A stretch of 64,000 nt of DNA from Bacillota bacterium (GCA_022360955.1 JAKSBV010000396.1:1-64000), one strand, 5' to 3'. Positions 4,759 to 57,468 are shown, counted from the stretch's first letter. The notes: generated from the letters alone by a model not told the origin. A program made the numbers and translations.

Positions 4759-5583
4759 ATGAACTGGTTAGATAAACTGGAAAAAAAATTCGGCCATTTG
4801 GCCATTAAAGGAATCATTACTTACATTATAGGATTAAATGCATTTATCTATTTATTACAATGGATGGACCCCGGGATTATTGGTAAACTGACGCTTGTTC
4901 CGTCACGGGTTATAGCCGGGGAGGTATGGCGGTTGATTACCTATATTTTTATTCCGCCTCAGGTATCACCTTTGTGGATATTCTTTGCCCTTTATGTTGC
5001 TTATATGATCGGCAATAGTCTGGAACATGAATGGGGCAGCTTTAAATTTAATGTATACTATTTTTTTGGCATGATTGGTACAACGATAGCCGTGTTTATC
5101 ATCGGCGGCGGTGCAACGGCCACATACTTGAATTTATCTTTGTTTCTAGCCTTTGCCCATATTTTTCCCAATCATCAATTTCTATTGTTTTTCGTATTGC
5201 CGGTGAAAGTGAAGTATTTGGGATGGCTTAATTGGATCTATATAGGCTTTAATATATTGGTTTTACCTTTAGAATATAAGCTTATTCCCCTTATAACCGT
5301 CATTAACTTTTTTATTTTCTTTGGAAAAGACCTTTTTAGAAGAGCAAAGATCAATAGAGCCGTTCACTATAATCGCAGAAGATTTCAAGCCCATGTACCA
5401 AAAGATTTCACACTGCACAAATGTACCGTATGCGGTATTACGGAAAAGGACGACCCGAAAATGGATTTTAGATACTGCATGGATTGTGAAGGGGAGCATG
5501 AATACTGTATGGAACATTTGAAGACCCATGAGCATATTCGAAAAGGCGTAAATGAAAATGGTCAAGAGAAGGCGAGTGACTGA
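4759..5583 (+). CDS. Rhomboid-like membrane protein with C-terminal Cys/His zinc-binding tail; no Ser-protease motif
   Basis: The 274-residue protein has about six membrane segments between residues 15 and 195 in a rhomboid-like arrangement (EVWRLITYIFIP, the family's WR motif, followed by several hydrophobic helices). The GxSG catalytic motif expected in active rhomboids is absent; the corresponding stretch reads GGGATATYLNLSLFLAFAHI. The C-terminal soluble tail has CTVCG, CMDC and EYCMEHLKTHEH, probably a zinc-binding module. The start is the ATG at 4759 after AAAGGTG; the in-frame ATG at 4693 has no ribosome binding site. This suggests a pseudoprotease or scaffold rather than an enzyme, by analogy with iRhoms and derlins; that analogy is inference. 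Confidence 0.75.
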   Translation: MNWLDKLEKKFGHLAIKGIITYIIGLNAFIYLLQWMDPGIIGKLTLVPSRVIAGEVWRLITYIFIPPQVSPLWIFFALYVAYMIGNSLEHEWGSFKFNVYYFFGMIGTTIAVFIIGGGATATYLNLSLFLAFAHIFPNHQFLLFFVLPVKVKYLGWLNWIYIGFNILVLPLEYKLIPLITVINFFIFFGKDLFRRAKINRAVHYNRRRFQAHVPKDFTLHKCTVCGITEKDDPKMDFRYCMDCEGEHEYCMEHLKTHEHIRKGVNENGQEKASD

Positions 5584-5693
5584 TATCCATATAATGATTT
5601 TTTAACATAAAATTAATATTCTTTTAATGCAAAACTAACTCTATTCACATATATTATATATTCAGAGGATTATGTGTAGTGGAGGAAAAAGTG

Positions 5694-7529
5694 ATGGACG
5701 CGATAGCAATTGACTTCTTTAATAGCTACATATCGGAAGAATATAATCGTGATAATGTAAGAAAAGTAGAAGAAAGTAAAGCTTTTCTGGAAAAATGTTT
5801 TGAAGATATATTGAAAAAAGGTGATATAAGAACCTTTTTTCAACCCATTGTTTCTTTTGAAAATGCAGATATTTTAGGTTATGAAGCACTTTCCCGAGGT
5901 CCTGTGGGTTCTCCGCCGGAATTTCCGGATATACTTTTCGGGACGGCTAGATCTTTAGGCAGAACCTGGGACTTGGAATCCTTGTGCAGAACCAAGGCCC
6001 TTACATGTGCAAAAGGCATATTCCCGGAGTATATGCTTTTTTTAAACGTAGACCCTAATGTAATATATGATGAGAAGTTTATACGGGGCTTTACCAAAAA
6101 ATATTTAAACAAATACAATATTGATCCGGAAAATATTATTTTTGAAATCACCGAAAAATCATCGGTAAACGATTTTAAAACCTTTAAAAACGTGATTGAT
6201 AATTATAAAGAGCAGGGGTATAAAATCGCCATTGATGATGTTGGGGCAGGTTATTCCGGACTTTCTCTGCTGGCAGAAATCAGACCGCAGTATTTAAAGA
6301 TAGATATGAGTCTGATAAGAGATGTGGATAAAGACGGTTTAAAACAAGCCTTGCTCAAAACATTGTATGATTTTTGCCTGGTTACCAATATTAAAATGAT
6401 TGCCGAAGGCATCGAAACGGTTAATGAGCTTAATACACTGATAGATATTGGGGTTCATTATGGACAAGGCTACTTTATACAGCGTCCTTCTGCGGAATTT
6501 AAGGAATTGTCTGCTCCTGTCAAAAAGTTGATTACCGATCGAAACAAGTTGAAAAAAGTGGCCTATTATCATAACTCTTCTACCATTGCAATCGGAGATA
6601 TAGCAAAAATTAAGGAGGCCGTATCCCCGGAGACGTCAGGCATGGAATTATTCGAAAAGTTTAACAAAAACCCCAATGTGCGAGGGATCCCGGTAGTAGA
6701 TCATAATAAGCTCAAGGGACTTGTTATGAAAGACAAGTTTTTTGCAAAGTTAGGCACAAAATACGGTGTTGCAATTTTTATGAACAGGCCCATTGCGTTG
6801 CTCATGAATCGCAATCCCCTTGTTGTAGATTATTATACCCCTCTTGATCAAGTCTCCAAGCTGGCAATGGCGAGAAAAGAAGAAGAGCTTTATGATTATG
6901 TAGTCATCATTAAGAAAAACGATTACTACGGTATCATTACTGTTAAAGATTTACTGGAGAAGTCAATGCAACTCAAGATCAATTACGCCAAACACCTTAA
7001 TGCGTTAACAGGCTTACCGGGTAACAACCTGATTGAGAAGAAGATCTTGAATTTGATCGACAGCAATCAGCCCTATACCATTTTGTATATAGATGCGGAT
7101 AATTTTAAATCCTATAATGATGTTTACGGCTTTGAAAATGGGGACAAGCTCATACAATTGATTGCACAAATTTTATGTGAAGAGACCGAAAAGCATCCTG
7201 CAGCCGACAAATTTGTCGGGCATATCGGCGGGGATGATTTTATTGTCATGTTAAACGAATATAGCGTACAAACCTTATGTGACAACATCATACGACAATT
7301 CGATACAAAGGTTAGAGACTTATATAAAACGGAGGATGTGGCAAGAGAGTATATTATTGCGAAAAACAGGCACGGAGAAATAGAAAAATTTCCCTTGGTG
7401 ACCATTTCCCTTGCAGGCATCACCAACCGATACAAAAAGTATGCAGAACCGTCCGAACTTGCAGAAGCTGCGAGTAAAATGAAAAAGACCTGCAAATTGT
7501 TGTGGTGCAGCTGCAGCAATATTGAATAG
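5694..7529 (+). CDS. Cyclic di-GMP signalling protein: EAL - CBS pair - GGDEF
   Basis: The 611-residue cytoplasmic protein has three parts. An EAL phosphodiesterase domain (about 40-270) has intact motifs: YEALSR with EAL at 64-66, NVDPNV, EITEKS, DDVGAGYSGL, KIDMSLI and AEGIE. A CBS-domain pair spans about 285-420. A GGDEF domain (about 430-600) has GLPGN and the active-site variant GGDDF at about 512-516. EAL residues look catalytic; the GGDDF loop may be active or a GTP-binding regulator. The start is the ATG at 5694, 8 bases after GGAGG (5681-5685). No transmembrane segment or sensor domain is present, so the CBS pair, which usually binds adenine nucleotides, is the likely input. It converges with the pseudouridine synthase gene. 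Confidence 0.9.
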   Translation: MDAIAIDFFNSYISEEYNRDNVRKVEESKAFLEKCFEDILKKGDIRTFFQPIVSFENADILGYEALSRGPVGSPPEFPDILFGTARSLGRTWDLESLCRTKALTCAKGIFPEYMLFLNVDPNVIYDEKFIRGFTKKYLNKYNIDPENIIFEITEKSSVNDFKTFKNVIDNYKEQGYKIAIDDVGAGYSGLSLLAEIRPQYLKIDMSLIRDVDKDGLKQALLKTLYDFCLVTNIKMIAEGIETVNELNTLIDIGVHYGQGYFIQRPSAEFKELSAPVKKLITDRNKLKKVAYYHNSSTIAIGDIAKIKEAVSPETSGMELFEKFNKNPNVRGIPVVDHNKLKGLVMKDKFFAKLGTKYGVAIFMNRPIALLMNRNPLVVDYYTPLDQVSKLAMARKEEELYDYVVIIKKNDYYGIITVKDLLEKSMQLKINYAKHLNALTGLPGNNLIEKKILNLIDSNQPYTILYIDADNFKSYNDVYGFENGDKLIQLIAQILCEETEKHPAADKFVGHIGGDDFIVMLNEYSVQTLCDNIIRQFDTKVRDLYKTEDVAREYIIAKNRHGEIEKFPLVTISLAGITNRYKKYAEPSELAEAASKMKKTCKLLWCSCSNIE

Positions 7530-7564
7530 CATGTCAAGGGGCCGGTCCTTCTGACACGTTTTCA

Positions 7565-8539
7565 TCAAAGCATATCATAAGCTTGTCCCGTTGATGCAAA
7601 GTCCACTTCTTTTACCTCAAAACTTTTTCCTTTTAAACCATTCAGGATTCCGGCATCGGTTTTAAAATCAAATGTCAATTTATAGGCGTACAAAGCCTGA
7701 TAATGCACGCCCGGAAGATTTTTGCCGCCATATTTTCTATCTCCTGCCAGCGGGTGACCGATGGAAGAAAAATGTGCCCGGATTTGATGGGTTCTGCCTG
7801 TAATCAATTCCACTTCAACCAAACTCATATTGTTCTTTTCTTTTAAAACGTTATATTTTGTTACGATACTTTTGGCCTTACCTTGATGGGCATTGTATAT
7901 AGAGACCTTGTTTGTCGAGTGATCTTTGATAAGATAGCCCTCCAATTTCCCGTGCTTATGCTCAAGCAGGCCGTGGACAAGGCAAAGGTAGAACTTCCGG
8001 ATTTCCTTGTGCTTGATTTTTTCATTGACAATGCGCAAAGCCTCCGCATTCTTGGCCGCAATGACAATTCCTCCCGTATTTCGGTCAATTCTATTGCACA
8101 GTGCAGGCGCAAAAGTGTGTTCCGATTCGGGGTCAAATTCTTTCTTATGGTAAAGGTAGCTTTGGATATGGGTAATTAACGTATTTGTTTGCTCTTGCCC
8201 GGTGGGGTGCACCACCATACCCGGTTGTTTGTCTGTCAATAAAATGTTCTCATCTTCATAGATGATATGTATGTTCGGGTTAACGCCTTTAAAGGCTTCC
8301 GGCGCAATTTTTGTTTTGAACGCCTTTGTCTCTTCAAAAAAACTATCATTAATATATAAATCAATCACGTCGTTTTCTATCAATCTATAATTTTTTTCAA
8401 CCCTTTTGCCGTTTATTTTCACTCTTTTTTTCCTGATGGATTTATAGATCATGCCCAACGACATGGTTTTAAAATATTTTTGAAGAAACTTGTCAATACG
8501 TTGATTGGCGTCATTCGGTCCGACAATTATTGTTTTCAA
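7565..8539 (-). CDS. RluA-family RNA pseudouridine synthase with S4 domain
   Basis: This is a stand-alone pseudouridine synthase of the RluC/RluD/YlyB type, modifying uridines in rRNA or tRNA. An N-terminal S4 RNA-binding domain (about 12-75) precedes the catalytic domain. The motif NRIDRNTGG contains the catalytic aspartate; GRTHQIRAHF and HPLAGDRKYGG are the other family signatures. I place the start at the TTG at 8537-8539 because AGGGGTGAT lies at the right distance; a GTG at 8546-8548 would overlap that site. The protein is about 324 residues, the normal length. The exact rRNA target cannot be told from the sequence. Confidence 0.9.
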   Translation of the reverse strand: MKTIIVGPNDANQRIDKFLQKYFKTMSLGMIYKSIRKKRVKINGKRVEKNYRLIENDVIDLYINDSFFEETKAFKTKIAPEAFKGVNPNIHIIYEDENILLTDKQPGMVVHPTGQEQTNTLITHIQSYLYHKKEFDPESEHTFAPALCNRIDRNTGGIVIAAKNAEALRIVNEKIKHKEIRKFYLCLVHGLLEHKHGKLEGYLIKDHSTNKVSIYNAHQGKAKSIVTKYNVLKEKNNMSLVEVELITGRTHQIRAHFSSIGHPLAGDRKYGGKNLPGVHYQALYAYKLTFDFKTDAGILNGLKGKSFEVKEVDFASTGQAYDML

Positions 8540-8559
8540 CGGTATCACCCCTTTTGTTA

Positions 8560-8592
8560 GTGGACAGTGGACAGTGGACAGTTGACAGTTAA
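8560..8592. repeat. Degenerate GTGGACA heptamer tract
   Basis: Four near-perfect units of GTGGACA/GTTGACA in tandem directly upstream of the pseudouridine synthase gene. The same unit occurs at 22784-22830 and, as its complement (TGTCAAC), at 23128-23155. Confidence 0.75.
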
Positions 8593-8694
8593 GACCAGGT
8601 TTTTTCTATACGCTATTTATTCATTATGTATTATGCCTTTGATATTGTCAATTTATTTAGGGCTTTGAGTGTATTTCATTGAGTTGAAGAAACT

Positions 8695-8832
8695 TATGTA
8701 CCGGAGACCGGAGGTCAGAGGGCGGAAGTCGGAATATAACCGAACAGGAACACAAAGGAATCAGCGACAAGGTGTCTCAAATGTTATCCGGTTCATTCTC
8801 AACCCTCATCTCTCAGCCCTCAACTATTTTTT
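8695..8832. repeat. Dispersed intergenic segment shared with 57.7 kb
   Basis: This stretch (GGAGACCGGAGGTCAGAGG, ATCAGCGACAAGGTGTC, CCCTCAACTATTTTTTCC) is matched in reverse complement by 57685-57812. Its last part, CTCAACCCTCATCTCTCAG, also recurs at 49260-49300 and in shorter form near 37088. The frame across it has no protein-like features. Confidence 0.7.
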
Positions 8833-8928
8833 CCTTGGCATATCACTTGGTGAAATAATTTTCTTCCATTAAAGTTTATATACCTGTGACATATCGATAA
8901 AAAAAATAATATTTTTTTAATAAAGTAC

Positions 8929-8957
8929 TTGAAAAAAAATGTGGAGTCGTGTAATAT
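8929..8957 (+). promoter_or_regulatory. Main promoter of the S10-spc-alpha ribosomal operon
   Basis: TTGAAA (8929-8934) and TAATAT (8952-8957) are spaced by exactly 17 bases, next to A/T-rich upstream sequence that could serve as an UP element. It is the best promoter match ahead of rpsJ and implies a leader of about 370 bases. Confidence 0.75.
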
Positions 8958-8963
8958 ATAATA

Positions 8964-9332
8964 GTTGTGACATGACATACGATGATGCAGAAGGTTGCCA
9001 GCCTGCGCGTTGGGTAATTTCTGTGGAGAATGTCCGATTCATGAAACCGGGCGGCAGAGTCACTGTACACTTAATAGAGAGACAGAAATGCATTATTTTC
9101 TGTGTCTAAATCGCTAGCCGGGAGCGGTCGCTGAGATTGCCCGTCGGCTATGGCAGATTGTTGTGTGTTTAATTCAGTTGAGATTTTTTGCCCAGGTTAT
9201 GTTATATGACACTAATCTGGGTTTATTTATAACAAACTATGAAACACCCGGCACAGTGTACAGTATTTTACCACTGTCGTGCATGGAGAAAGATAGAAAA
9301 TAACCTAATGTACGATTGAAGGAGGGAGACGT
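8964..9332 (+). promoter_or_regulatory. Structured 5' leader of the ribosomal protein operon
   Basis: About 370 bases lie between the predicted start of transcription and rpsJ. Several hairpins can be drawn by eye: GACAGAAA/TTTCTGTGTC near 9082-9107, TAGCCGGG/CCCGTCGGCTA at about 9114-9151, CCAGGTTA/TAATCTGG at about 9191-9220, and GCACAGTG/CACTGTCGTGC near 9250-9284. None is followed by a clear run of Ts. Such leaders often bind a ribosomal protein for feedback control; which protein would bind here is unknown. A 45-codon frame (8972-9109) without a ribosome binding site starts about 8 bases after the predicted start of transcription. Confidence 0.55.
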
Positions 9333-9644
9333 ATGGCAGCAAAACAAAAAATCAGAATCAGGTTGAAGGGTTATGACCACACTTTGGTGGATCAATCGGC
9401 CGAGAAGATTGTAGACACTGCTAAAAGGACAGGTGCAAGGGTGTCGGGACCTATTCCGTTACCAACAAAAAAAGAGATTATTACCATACTAAGGGCAGTT
9501 CATAAGTACAAGGATTCTCGTGAACAGTTCGAAATGAGAACGCATAAGAGGTTGATAGACATTTTGGTTCCAACACCGAAAACTGTTGACGCTTTAATGA
9601 GACTTGATCTGCCGGCAGGCGTAGATATTGAGATCAAACTGTAG
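9333..9644 (+). CDS. rpsJ: 30S ribosomal protein S10
   Basis: The 103-residue protein has the full S10/NusE signature ([28 protein letters not shown]). Besides its place in the 30S head, S10 acts as NusE in antitermination. It is the first gene of the operon, behind GAAGGAGGGAG. The tuf gene, often found just upstream in related genomes, is absent here. A 216-base gap with AT-rich repeats separates it from rplC. Confidence 0.98.
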
Positions 9645-9647
9645 AAA

Positions 9648-9803
9648 AACAATTAATAATGAATAATTAATAATGAAGAATGAATGTGAAATTATCTAGC
9701 GATAATTTGTATGATTGAGAAATACTTGTTGATAGGGAATACCGATAATGAAGTATGGGTTGGATGTTATCATTATTAATTATTAATTCTTAATTATTAA
9801 TTG
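9648..9803. repeat. ATTAATAATGAAT tracts flanking the rpsJ-rplC gap
   Basis: Degenerate tandem units of AATTAATAATGA occur at 9648-9682 and, in the opposite orientation, at about 9769-9803. The pair forms a long AT-rich inverted repeat around a 90-base spacer. Similar tracts occur after secY, copA and the SLH gene. Confidence 0.7.
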
Positions 9804-9860
9804 AAGAAACCCGGTCATGTTCGCGGAGAGCGAACCAATAACCATTTAGGAGGTGCAAGA

Positions 9861-10490
9861 ATGAATAAGGCAATATTAGGTAAAAAAATTGGAATGACGC
9901 AGCTTTTTACTGAAGAAGGCTTAGTGATTCCGGTAACTGTTATAGAAGCTGGACCGTGTTCGGTTGTTCAAAAGAAGACCGATGAGAATGACGGCTATAG
10001 TGCGATACAGCTTGGATTTGTTGACAAAAAGGAAAAGAGGGTAACTAAACCTTTAAAAGGGCATTTTGATAAGGCGAAAGTTGCTTATAAAAGATTCTTG
10101 AAAGAATTCAGATTGGACAATGCGGATGCGTTGAATGTGGGAGATGAAGTCAAGGCGGACACCTTTGCGGAAGGGGATAAAATAGATGTAACCGGTACTT
10201 CCAAAGGTAAAGGCTTCCAAGGTGTTATCAAGAGATGGGGCGCACATAGAGGCCCTATGACTCACGGTTCCAAGTATCACAGAAGAGTGGGTTCCATGGG
10301 TGGAAGTTCCAATCCTTCAAAAGTTTTTAAGGGTAAGAAGCTGCCCGGACATATGGGTGTACAAAAAGTCACGATTCAAAATCTTGATGTGGTACGTGTT
10401 GATGCAGAAAAAAATCTTCTTTTGGTGAGAGGTGCGGTACCCGGACCTAAAGGCGGATTACTGGTTATTAAAGATACTGTGAAAGCATAA
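9861..10490 (+). CDS. rplC: 50S ribosomal protein L3
   Basis: The 209-residue protein matches L3 throughout ([26 protein letters not shown]-type [19 protein letters not shown]). L3 binds 23S rRNA early in assembly near the peptidyl-transferase centre. The ATG at 9861 has AGGAGG 7 bases upstream; an in-frame start at 9801 has no such site and would add residues foreign to L3. Confidence 0.98.
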
Positions 10491-10522
10491 CAGCGAGTAT
10501 TTTTCGGAAAGGAGGATGTACG

Positions 10523-11146
10523 ATGCCTAAAACGGCTTTATATGATATGAATGGAAAACAAGTTGGGGATATCGAATTAAATGACGGCGTATTTGGTGCA
10601 GAGGTCAATAAATCGGTTCTTCATCAAGTCATTGTAAACTATTTGGCGAATCAAAGACAGGGCACACAAAGCACCAAGACCCGGGCGGAAGTCCGCGGCG
10701 GCGGCGCAAAGCCTTGGAGACAAAAGGGAACAGGCAGAGCAAGACAAGGAAGCATTAGAGCGCCTCAGTGGATAAAAGGTGGGGTAGCTTTAGGACCTAA
10801 GCCGAGAAGTTACAGATACAATGTGAATAAGAAAGTAAAGAGAGTGGCAATGAAATCGGCTCTCAGTTCTAAGGTGGCGGAAAACGATATCTTTGTGTTG
10901 GATCAATTGCAGTTTGAAAATATTAAAACAAAAGAAATGGTAAAGGTGTTGGGTAATCTTAACGTGGACACCAAAGCACTTGTTGTACTGCCTGAAAAAG
11001 ATGAGAACGTGATCAGATCGGCCAGAAATATACCCGGTGTAACTACAACGTTGGTAAGCACATTGAATGTATATGAGATCTTGAATCATGATAAGTTTAT
11101 TGTGACAAAAGATGCGGTTGCCAAGCTTGAGGAGGTGTATGCGTAA
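10523..11146 (+). CDS. rplD: 50S ribosomal protein L4
   Basis: The 207-residue protein carries the L4 loop that lines the exit tunnel ([20 protein letters not shown]) and the C-terminal globular domain. Its stop codon overlaps the rplW start (TAATG), implying translational coupling. In gammaproteobacteria L4 represses its own operon; no equivalent site is evident in this leader. Confidence 0.98.
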
Positions 11147-11439
11147 TGAGAACACCCCATGATATTGTGATAAGACCTGTTGTTTCAGAGCATAGCATGG
11201 AACAGTTTGCAGACAGAAAATATACCTTCGCAGTGGCATTGGATGCCAATAAGATAGAGATCAAAAAGGCAATTGAAGAAATTTTCGGTGTGAAAGTAGA
11301 AAAAGTCACTACGATGAGAGTGTTGGGGAAAGTTAAAAGAATGGGAATGCATTCCGGTAAGAGACCGGATTGGAAGAAAGCTATTGTGAAGTTGACGCCA
11401 GATAGCAAGACAATAGAGTTCTTTGAAGGAATGGTGTAA
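11146..11439 (+). CDS. rplW: 50S ribosomal protein L23
   Basis: The 97-residue protein has L23 features (DIVIRPVVSEHS, KKAIEEIFGVKVEKV). L23 sits at the tunnel exit and docks trigger factor and SRP. The ATG overlaps the rplD stop by one base. A short GGAGTG-type repeat tract follows before rplB. Confidence 0.98.
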   Translation: MRTPHDIVIRPVVSEHSMEQFADRKYTFAVALDANKIEIKKAIEEIFGVKVEKVTTMRVLGKVKRMGMHSGKRPDWKKAIVKLTPDSKTIEFFEGMV

Positions 11440-11558
11440 TAAAAGTGAGGAGCGGGGAGTGAGGCGTGGGGAGTGAAACCTCATGGATCCAAACTCGGCG
11501 GACTCCGAAAAAGATACAAGAGTGTGCATGTAATTTAGAAACGATTGGAGTGAGAGGG

Positions 11559-12392
11559 ATGCCAGTTAAAAAATATAATCCTACTTCTCCGGCAAGAAGA
11601 TTTATGTCTGTTTCTACATTTGAAGAATTGTCAAAGGTGGAACCGGAAAAATCTTTGCTTGAACCTCTAAAAAAGAATGCCGGAAGAAACTCGTACGGTA
11701 GGATCACTGTGCGGCACAGAGGCGGCGGAGCCAAAAGAAAATATAGAATCATTGATTTTAAGCGGAATAAAGACGATATGGCGGCGAACGTACTTACAAT
11801 CGAGTACGATCCGAACAGATCGGCGAATATAGCCCTTGTTCAATATGAGGACGGCGAAAAGAAATACATTATTGCTCCTTTAGGATTAAAAGTAGGAGAT
11901 ACTATCATTTCCGGGAAAGATGCGGATATTAAACCGGGAAATGCGAAAGCACTGAAGGATATACCGGTAGGTACGTTAATTCATAATATAGAGTTAAAGC
12001 CCGGCAAGGGTGCTCAAATGGTCAGAGCGGCCGGCAATTCGGCCCAGCTGATGGCAAAAGAAGAAAAGTACGCGCAGGTTAGATTGCCCTCGGGGGAAGT
12101 TAGAATGGTGTCGGTGAATTGTAAAGCGACCATTGGGCAAGTAGGGAACCTTGAACACGAAAACGTTACGATCGGGAAAGCGGGAAGAAAAAGACATATG
12201 GGTTGGAGACCGACTGTTCGTGGTGTTGTCATGAATCCTGTTGACCATCCGCACGGCGGTGGAGAAGGAAAATCGCCTATCGGAAGACCGAGTCCCGTTA
12301 CGCCATGGGGGAAACCTGCCCTTGGACTTAAAACAAGAAAGAAAAACAAAAAATCCGATAAGTTTATCGTTAAGAAAAGAAACGTTAAATAA
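11559..12392 (+). CDS. rplB: 50S ribosomal protein L2
   Basis: The 277-residue protein is full-length L2 ([42 protein letters not shown]). L2 is needed for subunit association and peptidyl transfer. The ATG at 11559 is 8 bases after GGAG. The longer frame opening at 11466 runs through a GGGGAGTGAGG repeat tract and is not part of the protein. Confidence 0.98.
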
Positions 12393-47652: not shown

Positions 47653-49200
47653 ATGAAACCAAATATTATATATATTTATGCCGATGACCTTGGCAGAGGG
47701 ATGCTCAGCTGCTACGGACAAAAACATTTTCAAACGCCGAATATTGACCGTTTGTCCGAGGAAGGGATGCGGTTCAACCAAGCGTACGGATGTGCTTTCT
47801 GTGCACCGGCAAGGGCCAGTGTGTTGTGCGGGCTGCATGATGCACACGCAGGCAGATGGACTTTTACAAAGGCCGGTATTTACAGGGAAATTGATAAAGG
47901 AACCCTGACGCTGGAAGAGGTATATGAATTAATTCATAATACGGGTATACAGGACGGAGCCGAGGATGTTTTTCTCCCTCATATTGCCCAAAAAGCCGGC
48001 TATGTAACCGGACAGATCGGCAAGCTGGAGTGGGGCTTTGCAACCACCGGAGACGAACTGGAGCGCCATGGCTGGGATTATCATTACGGTTATTATGATC
48101 ATTTGAGGTGTCACGGCTATTATCCTACCTTTTTATTTGAAAACGGAAAGAAATTTGACATTGACGGCAATACCTTTGTGAACTGCGGAGCCAAACGCAG
48201 TGCCTTTGAACAGGGCAAACAAATTGACATGACAGGCAGAAAAGTGTATTCGCAGGATTTGTTCGATGAAAAAATCATTGAATTTATAAGGGAACATAAG
48301 GACAAGCCCTTCTTCCTGTATCATCCCTCGCAGCTTCCCCACGGTGCCATATTTTTCCCTGAGATCCATCCGAGTGTTGCGGATAATCCGCACCTCAACG
48401 ATCTTGAAAAAGAATTTGCCTCTATGATATTGAGGCTGGACAAAACAGTGGGACTGATCCTGGATGAGCTTGACAGGCTCAACCTAAGTGAAAATACCCT
48501 GGTCATTTTCAGCTCCGACAACGGACACGCACTGCAATACCGTCTGAAAGGCAGGGTCACGCGTGAAATGACGAGCAACGGAGAGGAAATTGATAATATT
48601 AATACCAAATTTTATTCCGACACCTGCGGAGATGTATTTGACGGTAATGACGGGATGGCAGGGTTGAAATTCAGCAATTGGGAAGGCGGAGTGAGGATTC
48701 CGTATATCATGCGGTGGCCGGGGACAATAAAGCCGGGCAGCATAACCGACCACATGATGGCCAACTATGACTTGATGCCTACCGTAGCAGAACTGCTGGA
48801 GGTAGAAATGCCTGGGAACAAGGACGGTATTTCCTTTGCACCCCTTTTGAACGATGACCGGGACAACCTTCAAGCCCACGAATATGTCGTATATGCCAGC
48901 TACATGGGACCTGCACTTGTCACCAGGGACGGATGGAAGATACGGGCTATAATCGATGTGGACCAATACCGGTATGAGCGTCTTGGCGCATTCCTTGAAG
49001 AGATGGAGGAGATGGTGGAATACCAGCTTTTTAATATTCGGGAAGACTATCGTGAGGAAAAAAATGTGGCGCAGAAGTACCCGGAGAAGGTGGACGAACT
49101 GAGGCAGAAACTAATCAAGGAATGTGACGGGAATCTTATAAACGGCACACCGCAGATGCATTTTGCATTTTACGGACGTGAAGGAAGATTTGGACGGTAA
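47653..49200 (+). CDS. Sulfatase (formylglycine-dependent, Cys type)
   Basis: The 515-residue protein hydrolyses sulfate esters, probably on a polysaccharide. The activation motif is CAPAR with Cys50 as the residue converted to formylglycine. Metal and active-site residues are Asp11-Asp12 (YADDLG), GK at 123-124 (QIGKLEWG), and SSDNGH with Asp289 and Asn290. No signal peptide is seen, so it is probably cytoplasmic or exported atypically. The Cys-type site needs the anaerobic maturase AslB/anSME, encoded elsewhere. Its substrate is unknown. A terminator follows. Confidence 0.92.
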   Translation: MKPNIIYIYADDLGRGMLSCYGQKHFQTPNIDRLSEEGMRFNQAYGCAFCAPARASVLCGLHDAHAGRWTFTKAGIYREIDKGTLTLEEVYELIHNTGIQDGAEDVFLPHIAQKAGYVTGQIGKLEWGFATTGDELERHGWDYHYGYYDHLRCHGYYPTFLFENGKKFDIDGNTFVNCGAKRSAFEQGKQIDMTGRKVYSQDLFDEKIIEFIREHKDKPFFLYHPSQLPHGAIFFPEIHPSVADNPHLNDLEKEFASMILRLDKTVGLILDELDRLNLSENTLVIFSSDNGHALQYRLKGRVTREMTSNGEEIDNINTKFYSDTCGDVFDGNDGMAGLKFSNWEGGVRIPYIMRWPGTIKPGSITDHMMANYDLMPTVAELLEVEMPGNKDGISFAPLLNDDRDNLQAHEYVVYASYMGPALVTRDGWKIRAIIDVDQYRYERLGAFLEEMEEMVEYQLFNIREDYREEKNVAQKYPEKVDELRQKLIKECDGNLINGTPQMHFAFYGREGRFGR

Positions 49201-49342: not shown

Positions 49343-50755
49343 TTATGTCGGCCGATACTCGGGGTTGGGCTCCGGTATTTTTGCCTCCGCTCTGATACGC
49401 CAATCGGCCAGCATCTGCTGCAGCTTTGCAGTCAATTCAGGCATGCTGTCGGCCAAGTTGTGTTTTTCTTCTATATCTTCCCTCAAATGATACAATTCCA
49501 CCCGTTCGTATTCAAAAAATTCGATCAGCTTATAATCACCCATCCTAACGGATGAACCCGGTGTTCCGCCTTGGTTGCCGTAATGGGGAAAGTGCCAGTA
49601 AATGGCGCCGCGGTCAAAGTCGTCTTCTCCTTTGAGCAACGGCATAAAGCTGACCCCGTCCTGATGCTGCTCAGGCAGCAACTCTAACCCGGCCGCTTCT
49701 AATAGAGTTGGATAAAAGTCAGGGCTGGTAACCGGATGATAACATGTACTGTTGGGTTTGATCACATTCGGCCATTTGATAATCAGAGGTTCCCGTACAC
49801 CGCCTTCATACATCCAGCCTTTGCCCTCGTTTAAAGGACTGTTGCAAGTGGGAGAACTTTCAGCAGTTGAGAGCCCGCCATTATCGGAAGTAAAGATGAT
49901 GAGGGTATTCTCATGCTTGCCCGATCTTTCCAACGCCTCCGTCAAGCGGCCGATATTCTCATCCAGACTGTGTATCATGGCTGCGTATACCGGATTGGCT
50001 TGTATAAGACGCCGTTTAATGCGCGCATGTTTTTTGTGTTCCACCGCGAAAAACTCACCTTCTTCAAATTCCTGGATTTGATCCAGTCCCATTTTTTTTC
50101 GCTTATCCTCATATTTTTTAATATGTTCCGGCTTAGCCTGGATGGGTGTGTGCACGGTATAATACCACAAATTTAAAAAGAAGGGTTGGTCTCCGCTGTT
50201 TTCGATCAGCTTAATGGCTTCGTCGGTGAGTCTATCGGTCAGATACTCTCCTTCCGGACCATTTTCCAGTGTCGGAATGGCCCACGGACTAAAGTATCCG
50301 GCTTTTCCTGGCGCACCTTTATGACAGCCGCCAATGTTAATATCAAACCCGTGTTTGTCCGGATAATAGGCTTCTGTTCCCAGGTGCCATTTGCCGATAT
50401 GCCAAGTCTGGTAGCCGCCGTCTTTTAGAGCGGCTGCAAGGCTTTTTTCTTTAAGGGGCAAGTGGTCGATATACGGTGCGTCTATCAGTTTGCCCCGGGG
50501 CGGGTGATGCACATGCTGCGCACTGATGAAGTTGGTAACACCTACATTTGCAGGATACTTCCCGCTTAAAATACTTGCCCGGGTCGGCGAACATACCGGA
50601 CAAGCGGCATAAGCGTCGGTAAAGCGCAGCCCTTCTTCGGCCAGCTTATCAATGTTAGGCGTTTCATAGAAGGTGCTTCCCTGGCACCCCAGATCTTTCC
50701 AGCCCATGTCGTCAATGAGCACAAAGATAATGTTAGGTTGTTTTACAATACCCAT
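49343..50755 (-). CDS. Sulfatase (arylsulfatase family, Cys type)
   Basis: The 470-residue protein is a second formylglycine sulfatase, closer to the arylsulfatase A group than the previous one. CSPTR gives Cys55 as the formylglycine precursor, followed by SGKYP. DDMGWKDLG binds the metal, IGKWHLG holds the conserved Lys/His, and TSDNGG completes the site. No signal peptide is seen. The ATG at 50755 follows AGGGGAG; a TTG precedes it. The two sulfatases are only distantly similar and may cut different linkages of one glycan. Confidence 0.93.
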   Translation of the reverse strand: MGIVKQPNIIFVLIDDMGWKDLGCQGSTFYETPNIDKLAEEGLRFTDAYAACPVCSPTRASILSGKYPANVGVTNFISAQHVHHPPRGKLIDAPYIDHLPLKEKSLAAALKDGGYQTWHIGKWHLGTEAYYPDKHGFDINIGGCHKGAPGKAGYFSPWAIPTLENGPEGEYLTDRLTDEAIKLIENSGDQPFFLNLWYYTVHTPIQAKPEHIKKYEDKRKKMGLDQIQEFEEGEFFAVEHKKHARIKRRLIQANPVYAAMIHSLDENIGRLTEALERSGKHENTLIIFTSDNGGLSTAESSPTCNSPLNEGKGWMYEGGVREPLIIKWPNVIKPNSTCYHPVTSPDFYPTLLEAAGLELLPEQHQDGVSFMPLLKGEDDFDRGAIYWHFPHYGNQGGTPGSSVRMGDYKLIEFFEYERVELYHLREDIEEKHNLADSMPELTAKLQQMLADWRIRAEAKIPEPNPEYRPT

Positions 50756-51425
50756 CAAAAATCTCCCCTTTCACAGATATATTATAAAAAATATCGATTC
50801 ATGATGACGGATCATTTGTCTTGATGATTTCTAATGTCAAAAAAGATGATTGAACGGTTACATGCTAATTTGGTCTGTAAAATTTCTAAGAATAAGGCAA
50901 AATACAAATGATAAGAAGATTATATAATAGGGTGAGGCGTCCTACAATGTCAAAAGGCACATACTGATGTCGAAAAGTAATAATCTATATATTTCGTATT
51001 TTACACCGTGAAATGAGCTATATAAAATCCGTGCAAAATCTTTATCATGCAATCAATGGTTTAAGTGAATAGGGAAACTTCTGGATATCACAAACAAAAT
51101 ATAACCATTACCGCATTGTGGAAATTATACAATGTTACTAAAATAATAACTATAATCATTGTATAAATTTAAATGGGGCATTTTTTTAAATAGGATTTTA
51201 AGATCACTATCACTTTTCAACGTATTCCCGATAGAGTCAACACCAATGAGAGAGATAACAAATAACGGCAGGGCCTGGTGTCTTTTCACCAAAACAAATT
51301 TCACCGTCACATGGAAGTATTCAAGATACTTATATAGAAAATGAAGAGGCATTTTATGACATGGGCTTCAAAAATCTGAAATCAAGGGTTACAATCCTTG
51401 AAATAAACTAAAAGATAAAGGAGAG
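50756..51425. other. 670-base gap between divergent sulfatase and glycosidase genes
   Basis: It must hold the promoters for both genes, but no strong -35/-10 pair stands out. A 61-codon frame at 51159-51344 has no ribosome binding site and low complexity. No repeat of the families seen elsewhere was recognised here. Confidence 0.5.
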
Positions 51426-54400
51426 ATGAACAGGATGTGTGGGAAAAAAACGATTACACTCATGCTGGTTGTTACATTAATGCTGGCATTGGTACAGGTG
51501 AATACCGTATGGGCATTACCGTCAAACGAACACCTGCTGGGCCATTGGATGTTTAATGATCCGGTGGACGACGGCAAGACGTCGGATGCCGGCGGAAACA
51601 ACATTGAGGGAACAATAGTCGGCAATGTCACACTCGTGGAGGATGAAGGCGCTTTTGACGATGGGAATAAGTGCTATTCCTTTGATGGCAACAGTTATGT
51701 CGAGTTGATGACAAGCGGTCCCATCTCAGACGACTTCACGGTTTCACTATGGGTTTATGCTACTGACCCGGGATTTAAAAATATTATGGGTGTCGGTAAT
51801 GTAGCCTGGTTGAAAAGAGAGAGCGGTGAAGGCAAATTAACATCACCGATGTTCAAAGACCTGACCATTGAATCCAAGGAGGGCCTGAAGTCCAACAAAT
51901 GGTATTTATTAGGCTTATCGCGCAGTGCCGGCGGTCAATATATGCTGTATAAGAAGGCGGCCGACGAAGATACGGCCGATGTGGCAACCGGTGATAATGC
52001 AGATACATTTAAATTAACCACCTTAGAGGGGCTTAACATAGCTTCGAAGGGAAGCACCTTTGGGAGCAAATGGCAAGGATATATTGACGATGTCAGGCTC
52101 TATAACGGAAGGGCGCTAACGGAAGGGGACATGGATGCCATTTTTGCTGCGACCTTACCGAATCAGCAATCTGCGGATATAACACCTGAAAGGGCAACAT
52201 TTGATAAAAATCCCAGTCATCAAGAGGATATAGAAGTCACCATGACCCTGAACGGCAAGACACTGGAAGGTCTCAAAAACGGTGACACCCCACTGGCAGA
52301 AGGCAATGATTATACGATAGCCGGTAATGTATGCACGATAAAGAAGGAATATCTTGAGACTTTAGAAGCACATACTACCGTGGATATTCAATTTGACTTC
52401 AGTGCGGGAGCCGATAGAATGCTTCGGATAGAGATTGTAAATAGTGCCGTCCTGAATGCGGAAATAAGCCCTGCAAAAGCAGAGTTTGATCGAAATACTC
52501 AACATCAACAGGACATAGAGCTCACCTTAACTCCGAACGGCAATACGCTTCAAAGGATTACAAACGGTTCGGAGGAACTCGTGCAGGGTACCGATTATGA
52601 GATATCCGGCAATAGTTGTACGATAAAAAAGGCATATCTTGCCGGTCTGTCCTTAGGCGTAAGCAATCTGATATTTGATTTCGATGCCGGAGCAGACCCG
52701 GAGTTGGAGGTTACTGTTATGGATACAACAGTATGGCAAGTCATTCAACATAATGGGGCCGGTTTGATCTTAGGCTATGACGGCAAGACCGGGTCGTTCA
52801 CGATGACCGGCGGCAATAGCACTGAGTACAACTCGCAATGGGTCTCCGGAGATGCCGGGGGCGGTTCCATCTATATTGAAAATAAAATGCTGGGCGAAAG
52901 GTTGAGCTATGATAAGGGGACAGGTACGCTGGCCATGGTATCGAGAACAGTTACAGGCCCTGCTGTTGAATGGCAATTTGCCGGGGTTGCGGATAACTGG
53001 TGTGCCTTGCTCAATCCCGATAGCAATAAAAGATTAAGGTATGATGTTGAGCATAAGAAGTTTGACATGGTTGATCCGAGTGACCCGAACGATCCTTACT
53101 ACGGTCTTAACGAACAAGACGCTTCTCTGTTATGGGAGATGAAGGATTATGAAGGTACGAATCTTTTAGGTAATTCCGGATTTGAACACGGCAATACGGA
53201 GGGGTGGGACGGAAACGGAGCAAAACTTGCCGTTGAGGCAGCAACCGTTCACACAGGGATGTACGCCGTAAGATCCTATGAACGAAAAGAAAAATGGCAT
53301 GGTGTAAAACAGGATGTTTTGGAAAAAATAAAGGCAGCCGGGGCGGGTACATACCGGTTTTCCGCGATGGTCAGACTTGCGGAAGGTACCGGAAAAGTCA
53401 TGGCGAGAACCAGTATAAATAATAAAAATAATGATGTGCAGTATGACGTCAATGCAACAGAATGGACGAAAGTAGAACAAGAGTTCACGGTGATTAATGC
53501 AGATACGGCAACAGGTGCGTATGTCCTTGTGAGGATGGGCGATGATACCCTTGCAGATATTTTGGTGGATGATTGTGTTTTAGCGAAACTTCCGCCGGCC
53601 GATCCAAGCAATGTGCTCATAGAGATTAACCCTTCTGCAGAAAAGTGGACTATTAGTAAAGATCTGCTGGGTCTTCATTTTGTATATCCATTGGAAAGGG
53701 ATTATATCTATAGTGACGGAAGCTTTGCGAAATGGGTAAAGAATAATAAAATATGGACGTCTCGTTTCCCCGGAGGGACTGTGGTGAAGTACTGGGATTG
53801 GCAGAATCCGACGGGTGTTTTTAAAGGTGACCATTGGGATCCCAATTGGGACCCGGCTAATCAGGAACCGGATTTTAAATGGATGAGCGTTGACGAATAC
53901 CTGGCATTTTGTGATGAATCCGGTATGGAGCCCATGATGGGGGTAAATCTAAATTCAGGGCACAGGTATAATAGGGTTGAAGATAGTGTCCAAAGGGCAA
54001 AGGAACTTTTACAATATTGCATCGATAAAGGATATAATATCAAATGGTGGTATCTGGGAAATGAAGAAGCCTATCCGATTGATACATATATTAACTATAT
54101 TAACCGGCATGCACAGGCTATGAAAGAGATTGACCCGGATATCAAATTCATCATCAATTCAAACCACCTCGGTGAGAAAAATCTAAGGACTTTTTTGAGA
54201 GGTGCGGGTGATAATATTGACGTGGCTGAGTATCACCATAAATGGTATTCTTTCAAAGTGAAGTCCACGCCTGAAATGTGGAAAGTGGAATTTCCGTTAT
54301 TTAACGGGAAGATTCAGCAGCGTATGGATACTTTGCGGCGCGTAGCAGAGGAAGAAGGCTATCCGAACCTATTGATTGCCAACAATGAGTGGGGCATTAC

Positions 54401-55766
54401 GGAAGACATGACAGGCTTCACGAAGTATGAATCGAGTCTGGTTGCCGTTGATTTCCTATTGGAGCTTTTCCGAACCGGGCATGACCAAGCGTGCCTGTGG
54501 AATACGCAATGGACTTGGGACCCTCCCAGGCCTATGCACGCAGATATGCATTTGCTGGATCACTCGGATCACTACAAATTAAATCCTATGGGGAGAGGAT
54601 TTGAGCTTTTAAGTACGGCTCTTGAAGATACTATGATTGAAATGACATCTAATCAAAAGCCCGTATACGGATTTGCAAGCAAGGACAGCACCGGCAGCAA
54701 ATATCAGCTTTATCTGATGAACAAATTCGGTGAAGACGCACAGATCAAAATAGATGTAGACGGAATATCCGGGTTTAAAAACGTAGCTGCAAGCATCATG
54801 AAGGACCCGGGCCTGCAAGTGGAAGATCAAGCGATATCTTATAATGGGGCGACGCAGCAGTATGAGACAACTTTACCGCCGTATTCCTTTGTCCGTATTG
54901 TATTTTCCGATCAAGCCATTGTACTGCCTGACGTAAAAGCGCCGGGTGAAGTGGAAAATGTGAAGGTTACGGCCGGTGACGGCAAGCTAACGGTGAACTG
55001 GACGGACCCGGCAGATCAGGACTTGTCAACCGTTGTCTTATATACGGATAGCGAAGTGCCGGGTGCGATGGATGAAGACCTGTATCCGGATATTAAGTTC
55101 CCGGTTACGGCGGCTAAAGGAATGAGTACTGCAATAAAAACAGGGCTTCTGAATGGGACTGAATATGAACTGACCATTAAGACGGTAGATGAATACGGAA
55201 ATATGTCTCAAGGTGTTATCGTAAAGGGAACGCCGGTTGCATCTCAGGGCGGCGGCGGTCTCAAAGAAAAGATTACGGAAGCGGAAGGGCTCAACGAGAA
55301 AGACTATACGGCAGAAACATGGTCCTCATTGCAGACAGCGTTGACGGCAGCTATAGCGGTCAGAGATAATACGGCGGCGACCCAAGAAGAGATTGACCGC
55401 GCATTGGCTGATCTGCAAGCAGCGATTGACGGACTTAAGCAGGAAAAATTATTTGCGATCACTTCTGCCAATAATGCACTGGACAGAGTAGGAGGCATTA
55501 GAGCAACCGTGAATGTCGAACCTGTAAACGGAGGTGTTGGTCGTGAAGGCGATGAAGTTGTGGTCTTCCAGCTTATGAAGGATACAACACCGATCAGCAT
55601 CGTTGCTGTAGAAAAAGACATCCTGTCGGCAGAGGAATTTACCGCATACTTTAATGTAGCGGACCCTGATAATACAAAATATACAGTCAAGGTATTCGTA
55701 TTCAACGAATTCAACAGCGATACCAATGCGCCTATAAGTTTGGCCGAACCGAAATTGATGCAGTAA
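51426..55766 (+). CDS. Secreted multidomain glycoside hydrolase (LamG - X2 - X2 - trefoil-like - CBM - GH - Fn3 - FIVAR)
   Basis: The 1446-residue protein has a signal peptide (about 1-31). Then come a LamG/concanavalin-type domain (about 40-245), two X2-like Ig modules (about 249-341 and 344-435; ITPERATFDKN and ISPAKAEFDRN), a trefoil-like region (about 437-575), a CBM4/9-like jelly roll (about 577-722, NLLGNSGFEHG), a TIM-barrel glycosidase of clan A type (about 725-1162), a fibronectin III domain (about 1168-1272), a FIVAR segment (about 1277-1340) and a C-terminal beta domain. In the barrel WWYLGNEE offers Glu880 as acid/base and IANNEWG offers Glu988 as nucleophile, as in arabinofuranosidase- and agarase-like families; I cannot assign the GH family. 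Starts at 51426 and 51435 are both possible. It acts outside the cell on a complex glycan, and sulfatase genes lie beside it. Confidence 0.88.
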   Translation: MNRMCGKKTITLMLVVTLMLALVQVNTVWALPSNEHLLGHWMFNDPVDDGKTSDAGGNNIEGTIVGNVTLVEDEGAFDDGNKCYSFDGNSYVELMTSGPISDDFTVSLWVYATDPGFKNIMGVGNVAWLKRESGEGKLTSPMFKDLTIESKEGLKSNKWYLLGLSRSAGGQYMLYKKAADEDTADVATGDNADTFKLTTLEGLNIASKGSTFGSKWQGYIDDVRLYNGRALTEGDMDAIFAATLPNQQSADITPERATFDKNPSHQEDIEVTMTLNGKTLEGLKNGDTPLAEGNDYTIAGNVCTIKKEYLETLEAHTTVDIQFDFSAGADRMLRIEIVNSAVLNAEISPAKAEFDRNTQHQQDIELTLTPNGNTLQRITNGSEELVQGTDYEISGNSCTIKKAYLAGLSLGVSNLIFDFDAGADPELEVTVMDTTVWQVIQHNGAGLILGYDGKTGSFTMTGGNSTEYNSQWVSGDAGGGSIYIENKMLGERLSYDKGTGTLAMVSRTVTGPAVEWQFAGVADNWCALLNPDSNKRLRYDVEHKKFDMVDPSDPNDPYYGLNEQDASLLWEMKDYEGTNLLGNSGFEHGNTEGWDGNGAKLAVEAATVHTGMYAVRSYERKEKWHGVKQDVLEKIKAAGAGTYRFSAMVRLAEGTGKVMARTSINNKNNDVQYDVNATEWTKVEQEFTVINADTATGAYVLVRMGDDTLADILVDDCVLAKLPPADPSNVLIEINPSAEKWTISKDLLGLHFVYPLERDYIYSDGSFAKWVKNNKIWTSRFPGGTVVKYWDWQNPTGVFKGDHWDPNWDPANQEPDFKWMSVDEYLAFCDESGMEPMMGVNLNSGHRYNRVEDSVQRAKELLQYCIDKGYNIKWWYLGNEEAYPIDTYINYINRHAQAMKEIDPDIKFIINSNHLGEKNLRTFLRGAGDNIDVAEYHHKWYSFKVKSTPEMWKVEFPLFNGKIQQRMDTLRRVAEEEGYPNLLIANNEWGITEDMTGFTKYESSLVAVDFLLELFRTGHDQACLWNTQWTWDPPRPMHADMHLLDHSDHYKLNPMGRGFELLSTALEDTMIEMTSNQKPVYGFASKDSTGSKYQLYLMNKFGEDAQIKIDVDGISGFKNVAASIMKDPGLQVEDQAISYNGATQQYETTLPPYSFVRIVFSDQAIVLPDVKAPGEVENVKVTAGDGKLTVNWTDPADQDLSTVVLYTDSEVPGAMDEDLYPDIKFPVTAAKGMSTAIKTGLLNGTEYELTIKTVDEYGNMSQGVIVKGTPVASQGGGGLKEKITEAEGLNEKDYTAETWSSLQTALTAAIAVRDNTAATQEEIDRALADLQAAIDGLKQEKLFAITSANNALDRVGGIRATVNVEPVNGGVGREGDEVVVFQLMKDTTPISIVAVEKDILSAEEFTAYFNVADPDNTKYTVKVFVFNEFNSDTNAPISLAEPKLMQ

Positions 55767-55780
55767 GCTGTTCATAAACA

Positions 55781-55815
55781 AGCCGTTGAACCCGGCAGCT
55801 TCGGGTTCAGCGGCT
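55781..55815 (+). other. 14-bp stem hairpin between glycosidase and SLH genes
   Basis: AGCCGTTGAACCCG and CGGGTTCAGCGGCT pair around GCAGCTT with one wobble. No T-run follows, so it is probably an mRNA stability element or weak attenuator inside an operon. Confidence 0.65.
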
Positions 55816-55839
55816 ACATCAAAGAAAGGGTGAATAAAA

Positions 55840-57468
55840 TTGAAAAGAAGACTGTTGAGTTTGGCGATAGCTGCTATGGTATTGCTGCTGAGTGCACAGA
55901 GTATTCTGGCATCGGAAACCGTTAGCTTGCACAACATATCGAGCAAACATCCGTCCGACGCCGTCACCATATCCGGCAGCAGCACATGGGACGAAGTGAC
56001 GGTAAAGGTGATGCGTCCCAACCAGTCCATTTTATATATCAACGTGCTGACCGGCGAAAACTTTTCCGACACTTTCACATTGCCTGCCGATACCCAATTA
56101 GGGACCTATACCGTTGTCGCAGGGCAAGGCAGTTCCACGGCGGTAACAACCTTTGAAGTGCGGCGAAAGAGTACCGGCGGCGGTACGTCTTCAAGAAGAA
56201 AGAAGAAACCGGCGGAGAAACCACCTAAAATTGAGGGGGAGCAGGCCGATATCAGTCAAAATGCGGAGGTTAAAAAGCAGCGGCAGGCAGACGGTACAGT
56301 CTCTGTCCGGGCGTCCGTCAGCATCGAAGCGGTAGAAAAGGCCCTGGCCCACCAACAGGTAGAAAGCATTGTCATAGACCTGCAGGAAGACGCGGAAGAT
56401 GTGGTGATCTCCTTGCCGGCAGAGGCCATGGAAGCCATGGGAGAAGAAGAGACAAAGCTGATCCTGAAAATAGACGATGTGACTCTTGAAATCCCGGCGG
56501 AAATCATCCATGGGGCAGAGTTGGCTTCTGCATTGGGTGTTGACGAAGAAGAGATGGATATTTTGATAAAAGTCAGCGAATTGGCCGAAAAGGAAGCCGA
56601 TAAGCTCAGAGCAAAAGCGACTCAAACGGCAAAAAGCCTGCGTCCCATCGGCAAAGTGCTGACATTTTCCATCGAAGCCGCTGGAAAAGGCAAAACCGTG
56701 AAAGTGGAGGATTTCGGAGAGCTGACCGTAAAAGGGGAGATTCCCTATAGGAGTCAGGATATCAAAGGGATAGAAGACTTGCAAAAGCTGAACGTATACA
56801 AATACAATGAAACAACGGAAAAATGGGAATACAGGAGGAGCAAGGGAGATACGGAAAACAAAAAGGTGATCTTTTATACCCAAGATTTCTCCAACTATAC
56901 CATTATGGAAAACAACAAGACCTTTGCAGATATCCGAAACCATTGGGCCAGAGAAAACATTGAGCTCATGGCGGCAAAGCATGTGGTAAACGGAATGAAC
57001 GAGGACACCTTTGCCCCGGAAGAAAAAGTAACCCGTGCCCAATTTGCCACCATGCTTGTCAATGCCTTGGGGATCACAAACAGAGAAGCCGGCACCTCCT
57101 TTAGCGATGTCAAAGCCGGGGGCTGGTATTATGAGAGTGTTATGGCAGCGGCAGAAGCCGGGCTGGTAACCGGTGTGGGCGGCGGCCGATTTGCCCCCGA
57201 TGCGAATATCACAAGGGAACAAATGGCGGTGATGATCATGAGAGCCTATGGTTACAGTACGGGAGAAGACTATGAAGAGATATCCGATCCGGCCGGAGGA
57301 TTTAAGGACCGGGATGAGATCAGCGGGTGGGCGGAGCAAGCCGTCAACGCAGCCAATCATCTGGGGATTGTAACCGGTGTAACGGCCGATAGGTTTGCGC
57401 CGGCGGACGAGGCTACCAGAGCCCAGGCGGCGGTGATGATCAACAGGCTTTTGGAGAGCAATGAATAA
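55840..57468 (+). CDS. S-layer-homology (SLH) domain surface protein
   Basis: The 542-residue exported protein has a signal peptide (1-24), an Ig-like beta domain (about 27-108), a basic linker (SSRRKKKPAEKPP), a central region of about 200 residues resembling uncharacterized domains of SLH proteins (residues about 145-350), and three SLH domains (about 362-420, 425-485 and 490-542: FADIRNHWARENIELM, FSDVKAGGWYYESV, FKDRDEISGWAEQA) that bind pyruvylated secondary wall polymer. The start is a TTG after AAAGGGTG. It follows the glycosidase gene by 73 bases and may help keep the enzyme or its substrate at the surface; that is inference. Confidence 0.9.
   Translation: MKRRLLSLAIAAMVLLLSAQSILASETVSLHNISSKHPSDAVTISGSSTWDEVTVKVMRPNQSILYINVLTGENFSDTFTLPADTQLGTYTVVAGQGSSTAVTTFEVRRKSTGGGTSSRRKKKPAEKPPKIEGEQADISQNAEVKKQRQADGTVSVRASVSIEAVEKALAHQQVESIVIDLQEDAEDVVISLPAEAMEAMGEEETKLILKIDDVTLEIPAEIIHGAELASALGVDEEEMDILIKVSELAEKEADKLRAKATQTAKSLRPIGKVLTFSIEAAGKGKTVKVEDFGELTVKGEIPYRSQDIKGIEDLQKLNVYKYNETTEKWEYRRSKGDTENKKVIFYTQDFSNYTIMENNKTFADIRNHWARENIELMAAKHVVNGMNEDTFAPEEKVTRAQFATMLVNALGITNREAGTSFSDVKAGGWYYESVMAAAEAGLVTGVGGGRFAPDANITREQMAVMIMRAYGYSTGEDYEEISDPAGGFKDRDEISGWAEQAVNAANHLGIVTGVTADRFAPADEATRAQAAVMINRLLESNE

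Follow-up and report, generated by a model that had tools for sequence, protein, structure and literature searches.

In the cohesin-dockerin system, SLH proteins such as SdbA anchor cellulosomes (PMC5817068). The scaffold-like SLH protein S1 of Paenibacillus curdlanolyticus B-6 is reported to assemble with a xylanase outside that system; its SLH is described as N-terminal, most of its sequence as lacking a known homologue and its assembly as dependent on glycosylation (PMC6823336). A common design in clostridia and Paenibacillus places SLH on the same chain as the other domains of a multidomain protein, and sortase proteins carry an LPXTG signal instead. Here we compare with these systems two adjacent genes in a window of 64,000 nucleotides from a Bacillota bacterium (GCA_022360955.1 JAKSBV010000396.1:1-64000, the whole stretch analysed, positions counted from its first letter), and we put at roughly four in five the probability that they are one case of two-part surface display, in which a domain of a secreted cargo protein is the plug and a domain of a separate SLH adaptor is the socket. 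We call the proposed plug CTD (the last ~107 residues of the enzyme, ~1338-1446) and the proposed socket MG2L (the first, Ig/MG2-like domain of the adaptor); HMMs for both were built within this analysis.

The ORF call placed the enzyme gene at 51426-55766 and the adaptor gene at 55840-57468, both on the + strand, where the first-pass annotation had put them. From Pfam and a PDB sequence search, the enzyme is a secreted, multidomain protein of 1446 aa with the order LamG, two CBM_X2, a trefoil-like region, CBM_4_9, a clan-A GH51/79-like catalytic domain, fn3/DUF4959, FIVAR and CTD. The domain list given earlier stood for the most part: LamG (residues 87-233), both X2 modules (261-343 and 347-429), CBM_4_9 (579-706) and FIVAR (1278-1337; 55257..55439, +, PF07554) exceeded the Pfam cut-offs, whereas fn3/DUF4959 (1169-1270) and the trefoil-like region, a RicinB match at 469-537 with an E of 0.05, fell below them, and the glycosidase is best called clan-A-like. 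The catalytic domain (residues ~735-1165; 53628..54920, +) matched GH51 arabinofuranosidases (3s2c, E 2.9e-10) and heparanase (E 5e-5) in a phmmer search of PDB sequences, the similarity being confined to its N-terminal half; no GH51 or GH79 family HMM rose above its Pfam cut-off, GH79n matching below threshold and GH51 only in part. GNEE at residue 878, which keeps the GH51 ‘GNE’ and aligns with the GH51 acid/base region, is the candidate acid/base, and NNEWG at residue 986, picked by eye outside the alignment, is a plausible candidate nucleophile. As was first claimed, Pfam and the sequence revealed neither SLH, dockerin nor LPXTG anchor in the enzyme; the CTD extends to the final residue, where a sortase substrate would have its LPXTG motif followed by a membrane segment and a basic tail.

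The enzyme appears to be polysaccharide-degrading cargo, with its substrate assignment uncertain. Upstream of it lie two convergent sulfatase genes with CxPxR motifs, at 47653..49200 (+, Pfam Sulfatase E 2.6e-46) and 49343..50758 (−, E 2.3e-60, motif CSPTR). Neither product has an obvious signal peptide, which, beside a secreted enzyme, hints that a sulfated oligosaccharide is taken up and desulfated inside the cell. Because of these two sulfatases, our guess for the substrate of the enzyme is a sulfated polysaccharide, which the sulfatases may share. Elsewhere in the same genome (L049, contig G000:C137) sulfatases also adjoin a 1739-aa LamG/fn3/cadherin-like protein (6664-11883) with SLH on its own chain, so that single-chain and split designs coexist in this genome. 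Beside it, a 422-aa protein (4927-6195) repeats an inner part of the 1739-aa protein, as if a unit had been duplicated.

The first-pass annotation had not singled out residues ~1338-1446 as a separate, unnamed domain family, and this is the key part of the enzyme. No Pfam family matched the CTD (55437..55763, +), and the sole NCBIfam match reaching into it was a long protease model matched via FIVAR. Homologues and an AF2 model delimit it as a beta-sandwich domain; modelled alone, it was predicted as a seven-strand sandwich with a pLDDT of 90 and a pTM of 0.84. A fold search with this model returned generic beta sandwiches only, none at E <= 1e-3, and among the better global matches was a porphyran-binding CBM (TMq 0.61). 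This last match would fit a CTD that itself binds the wall or a glycan, as a CBM or an anchor, while the MG2L-SLH protein acts elsewhere; we regard this as the least probable of the explanations weighed here, because the fold matches are non-significant, the CTD also occurs on nucleotidases and proteases, and the pairing with MG2L would be left unexplained.

The next gene is an SLH protein without a catalytic domain by Pfam, as had been read from the sequence at the outset. It starts at a TTG preceded by the ribosome-binding-like site AAAGGGTG and encodes 542 aa, with its own signal peptide, MG2L (residues 25-107), a pre-SLH region of ~230 residues and three SLH domains (~362-534; SLH E 3.5e-39 in Pfam, and HMMs). 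MG2L forms the mature N-terminus (55912..56160, +) and is Ig-like in the AF2 model, with a pLDDT mostly >90, followed by a low-confidence, probably flexible linker. The pre-SLH region (56230..56919, +) is predicted to be alpha/beta (pLDDT ~80), and the SLH domains (56923..57441, +; Pfam and HMMs) make up the wall-anchoring end. A distal MG2L on a flexible linker above a wall anchor is the position expected of a receptor. MG2L resembles MG2 (PF01835) of the alpha-2-macroglobulin family only weakly, scoring 22.7 bits against a gathering cut-off of 32.8, and Ig/MG chains dominated a fold search with the adaptor model, in which complement and alpha-2-macroglobulin chains came first with low TM over mixed regions; unlike members of that family, the adaptor has a single such domain, at its N-terminus, and no other macroglobulin domains. 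The enzyme and adaptor genes lie in different reading frames, have separate signal peptides and are 73 bp apart (55767..55839, +). Within this gap is an inverted repeat, GAACCCG/CGGGTTC (~55787-55808), with no T run, which might set how much cargo is made relative to adaptor.

When the last 107 residues of the enzyme were searched against 148 relatives, they were found in only two other places, both in genome G002 of the same family. One of these CTDs ends a protein of Big_2 repeats that shows no relationship to the enzyme, and the next gene encodes a close relative of the window SLH protein, which ties the neighbour to the CTD and not to the enzyme. A pairing specific to the window enzyme family was rejected, as its catalytic domain gave only weak, short matches in the 148 relatives. 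FIVAR, which the first-pass annotation had offered as a possible docking element beside the C-terminal domain, was absent from the other CTD cargo scanned and was likewise rejected in this role, while the proposed partnership of C-terminal domain and Ig-like domain received strong support from adjacency, co-occurrence and correlated divergence.

Using three CTDs as queries against a collection of genomes of 84,980 species, we obtained 12 loci, and where enough sequence was present the gene after the CTD was usually MG2L with SLH; in Aneurinibacillus two consecutive CTD genes precede the MG2L-SLH gene. A profile search of Paenibacillaceae detected the CTD in 91 of 300 genomes. Of 59 strong CTD genes of this family, 53 have as their immediate downstream neighbour a gene for MG2L plus two or more SLH domains, separated from the stop codon by -19 to +105 nt; this exceeds chance even at a generous 1/1000 per gene, loci within one family not being independent. 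Three of the other six have the MG2L-SLH gene directly upstream; of the rest, L169 is followed by an SLH protein whose Ig-like N-terminal domain the MG2L model missed, L181 has an ORF between the two genes, and the surroundings of L176 contain no MG2L gene. Conversely, each of the 28 strong MG2L genes detected across 20 CTD-positive Paenibacillaceae genomes carries SLH and adjoins a CTD gene. The pair is also present in the window, G002, L051, three G149 loci, Aneurinibacillus, Dethiobacter and about ten further Bacilli and Clostridia; it is thus commonest in Paenibacillaceae and recurs in Clostridia and other Bacilli. Many of these genomes are draft MAGs, and several CTD genes stop at contig edges (G149 C95, C16 and C96). 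Conserved adjacency across genomes holds for the domain pair and not for this enzyme, and the idea of an enzyme with a separate SLH anchor survives with the amendment that it is the domain types that pair, the cargo differing by locus. The supposed contrast with the usual clostridial design holds for the separate anchor; the split is, however, no clostridial oddity, given its frequency in Paenibacillaceae and the SLH-bearing protein in the same genome.

The presence of the two domains is also linked. MG2L occurred in all 20 Paenibacillaceae genomes examined that have the CTD and in none of 20 CTD-negative ones; 5 of the positives had fed the MG2L profile and 15 had not, and the CTD-negative genomes tend to be smaller. 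In a mixed set outside this family the counts were 17 of 18 against 2 of 18, the latter two being weaker matches. Weak MG2L-like matches were seen in G004 (E 2e-10) and G001 (E 4e-4), two CTD-negative genomes from the family to which the window belongs. Moreover, across 60 pairs the distance matrices of CTD and MG2L correlated more strongly (r 0.71) than those of CTD and SLH from the same protein (r 0.54), and the partial correlations were 0.58 and 0.24, respectively. The bootstrap interval of the difference was 0.09 to 0.24, and 0 of 2000 permutations attained the observed value; the excess may come partly from evolutionary rates. Operon spacing on its own would fit mere co-expressed neighbours that share a surface task within one operon, the adaptor not holding the cargo. 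We consider this unlikely, since the conserved part is one domain on each side, while the catalytic domains of the cargo and the anchors of the adaptors vary freely; it would hardly explain why nucleotidases, proteases and glycosidases have the same CTD and MG2L neighbour, or why CTD follows MG2L more closely than SLH.

The range of both partners is wide. CTD cargo includes GH97, esterase and PA14 proteins, Ig-repeat giants, GH101-like, GH39-like and WbsX-like proteins, subtilase, metallophosphoesterase, 5′-nucleotidase and, by inspection, GH10. The position of the domain varies between C- and N-terminus, and C-terminal CTDs stop 0-23 residues before the stop codon; at the Paenibacillaceae loci L136-L141 an N-terminal CTD is borne by multifunctional cyclic-nucleotide phosphodiesterase/5′-nucleotidases paired with MG2L-SLH genes. 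On the other side, MG2L is mostly attached to SLH, and in a few lineages the anchor is instead dockerin I (two Dethiobacter proteins), ChW repeats (another lineage) or CFI-box-CTERM (two proteins). The Dethiobacter proteins (L093 and L096, G150:C30) end in the type I dockerin and lie near leucine-rich-repeat proteins with a CTD-like end, and cohesin domains occur within some CTD cargo (L095, 2364-5693; L203). That cargo and anchor are exchanged while CTD and MG2L persist is the strongest argument for a contact between them. The socket can also sit on an enzyme: in G002:C4 a GH10 xylanase with no recognised anchor carries MG2L (6353-9973), and is preceded by a small, GH43_C2/DUF1349-like CTD protein (L041, 10103-11152), an arrangement suggesting a further use of the pair, the linking of an enzyme with a subunit made separately.

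We examined whether the two domains ever share a chain. None of the intact proteins examined had both a CTD and a full-strength MG2L, and none of the full-length CTD proteins examined carried SLH. Fission of an SLH enzyme gene was not favoured as the origin of the pair, as a fused CTD-MG2L-SLH protein was not found. Alternatively, the domains might build polymers or lattices: proteins starting with MG2L and ending with CTD would join end to end, and the MG2L-SLH protein would serve only as the cap that ties the chain to the wall. In line with this, some adaptors (L089 and L095) have two or three MG2L domains, and two contig-end proteins of G002, L043 (C41), which starts with MG2L and Big_2, and L042 (C6), which has Big_2 and ends in CTD, may be a single protein. 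Nevertheless, joining the two contigs is conjectural, and among intact proteins the two full-strength domains never turned up on one chain, so we hold polymers to be as improbable as uncoupled neighbours. Isopeptide bonds are present in many Ig-like surface domains, and the CTD often has a lysine in its strand VVVFQLMK; thus the link might be covalent, either as an intermolecular bond between CTD and MG2L or through enzymatic processing of the CTD as a sorting signal. We rate this slightly below the two preceding alternatives, because N, D or another residue often replaces the lysine in other lineages, the CTD occurs at either terminus, and we saw no conserved processing enzyme beside the pair.

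We therefore return to the plug-and-socket reading, and we infer that CTD and MG2L make contact through a specific, stable bond whose purpose is surface retention. The first gene would yield a secreted cargo with no anchor of its own and with the small beta-sandwich CTD at one end; the second would yield a secreted adaptor with MG2L exposed at the N-terminus as the socket and with C-terminal SLH that binds the cell wall. After secretion, the CTD would dock on MG2L and the cargo would be kept on the outside of the cell. Elsewhere, dockerin, ChW repeats or a CFI-box C-terminus would take the place of SLH in fixing this socket, and very different cargo bears the plug.

This arrangement resembles the cohesin-dockerin system in that an anchorless cargo with a small docking module and a separate secreted receptor with SLH serve many kinds of enzyme, and in that cargo and wall-anchored receptor are separate chains, with no fusion found. 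In contrast, the window enzyme and the other cargo scanned have no dockerin, and the adaptor has no cohesin, only SLH and the sub-threshold MG2 match; CTD-MG2L pairs are adjacent and mostly one to one, where one scaffold serves many enzymes, and the cargo extends beyond plant-wall enzymes. Judged by its sequences, the pair is outside the cohesin-dockerin family, because both defining domains are absent, though its working can be likened to it. Compared with single-chain SLH proteins, it has the same SLH anchor and similar multidomain proteins, and differs in that the anchor is a separate protein, SLH not having been seen on CTD proteins. S1 is likewise a Paenibacillus SLH protein and is set apart by its N-terminal SLH, its sequence mostly without known homologue and its reported dependence on glycosylation (PMC6823336). 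We found no description of the CTD-MG2L pair in the literature searched, most subscription papers lying outside that search. We think it likely, though with less assurance than for the window genes themselves, that CTD and MG2L amount to an apparently undescribed docking system in general use among Gram-positive bacteria, with cohesin-dockerin-like versatility and unrelated domains. In such a system any secreted protein could be displayed by giving it a plug and an adaptor gene of its own, and the wall, the membrane or a cellulosome-type scaffold could each hold the socket.

If CTD and MG2L do bind, the two ~100-residue domains would offer protein engineering a new docking pair beside cohesin-dockerin. 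Many proteins now classed as secreted and anchorless would then be surface proteins, a role could be assigned to many of the anonymous ‘SLH domain-containing proteins’, and about a third of the Paenibacillaceae genomes sampled would display enzymes, proteases and nucleotidases by an unrecognised route.
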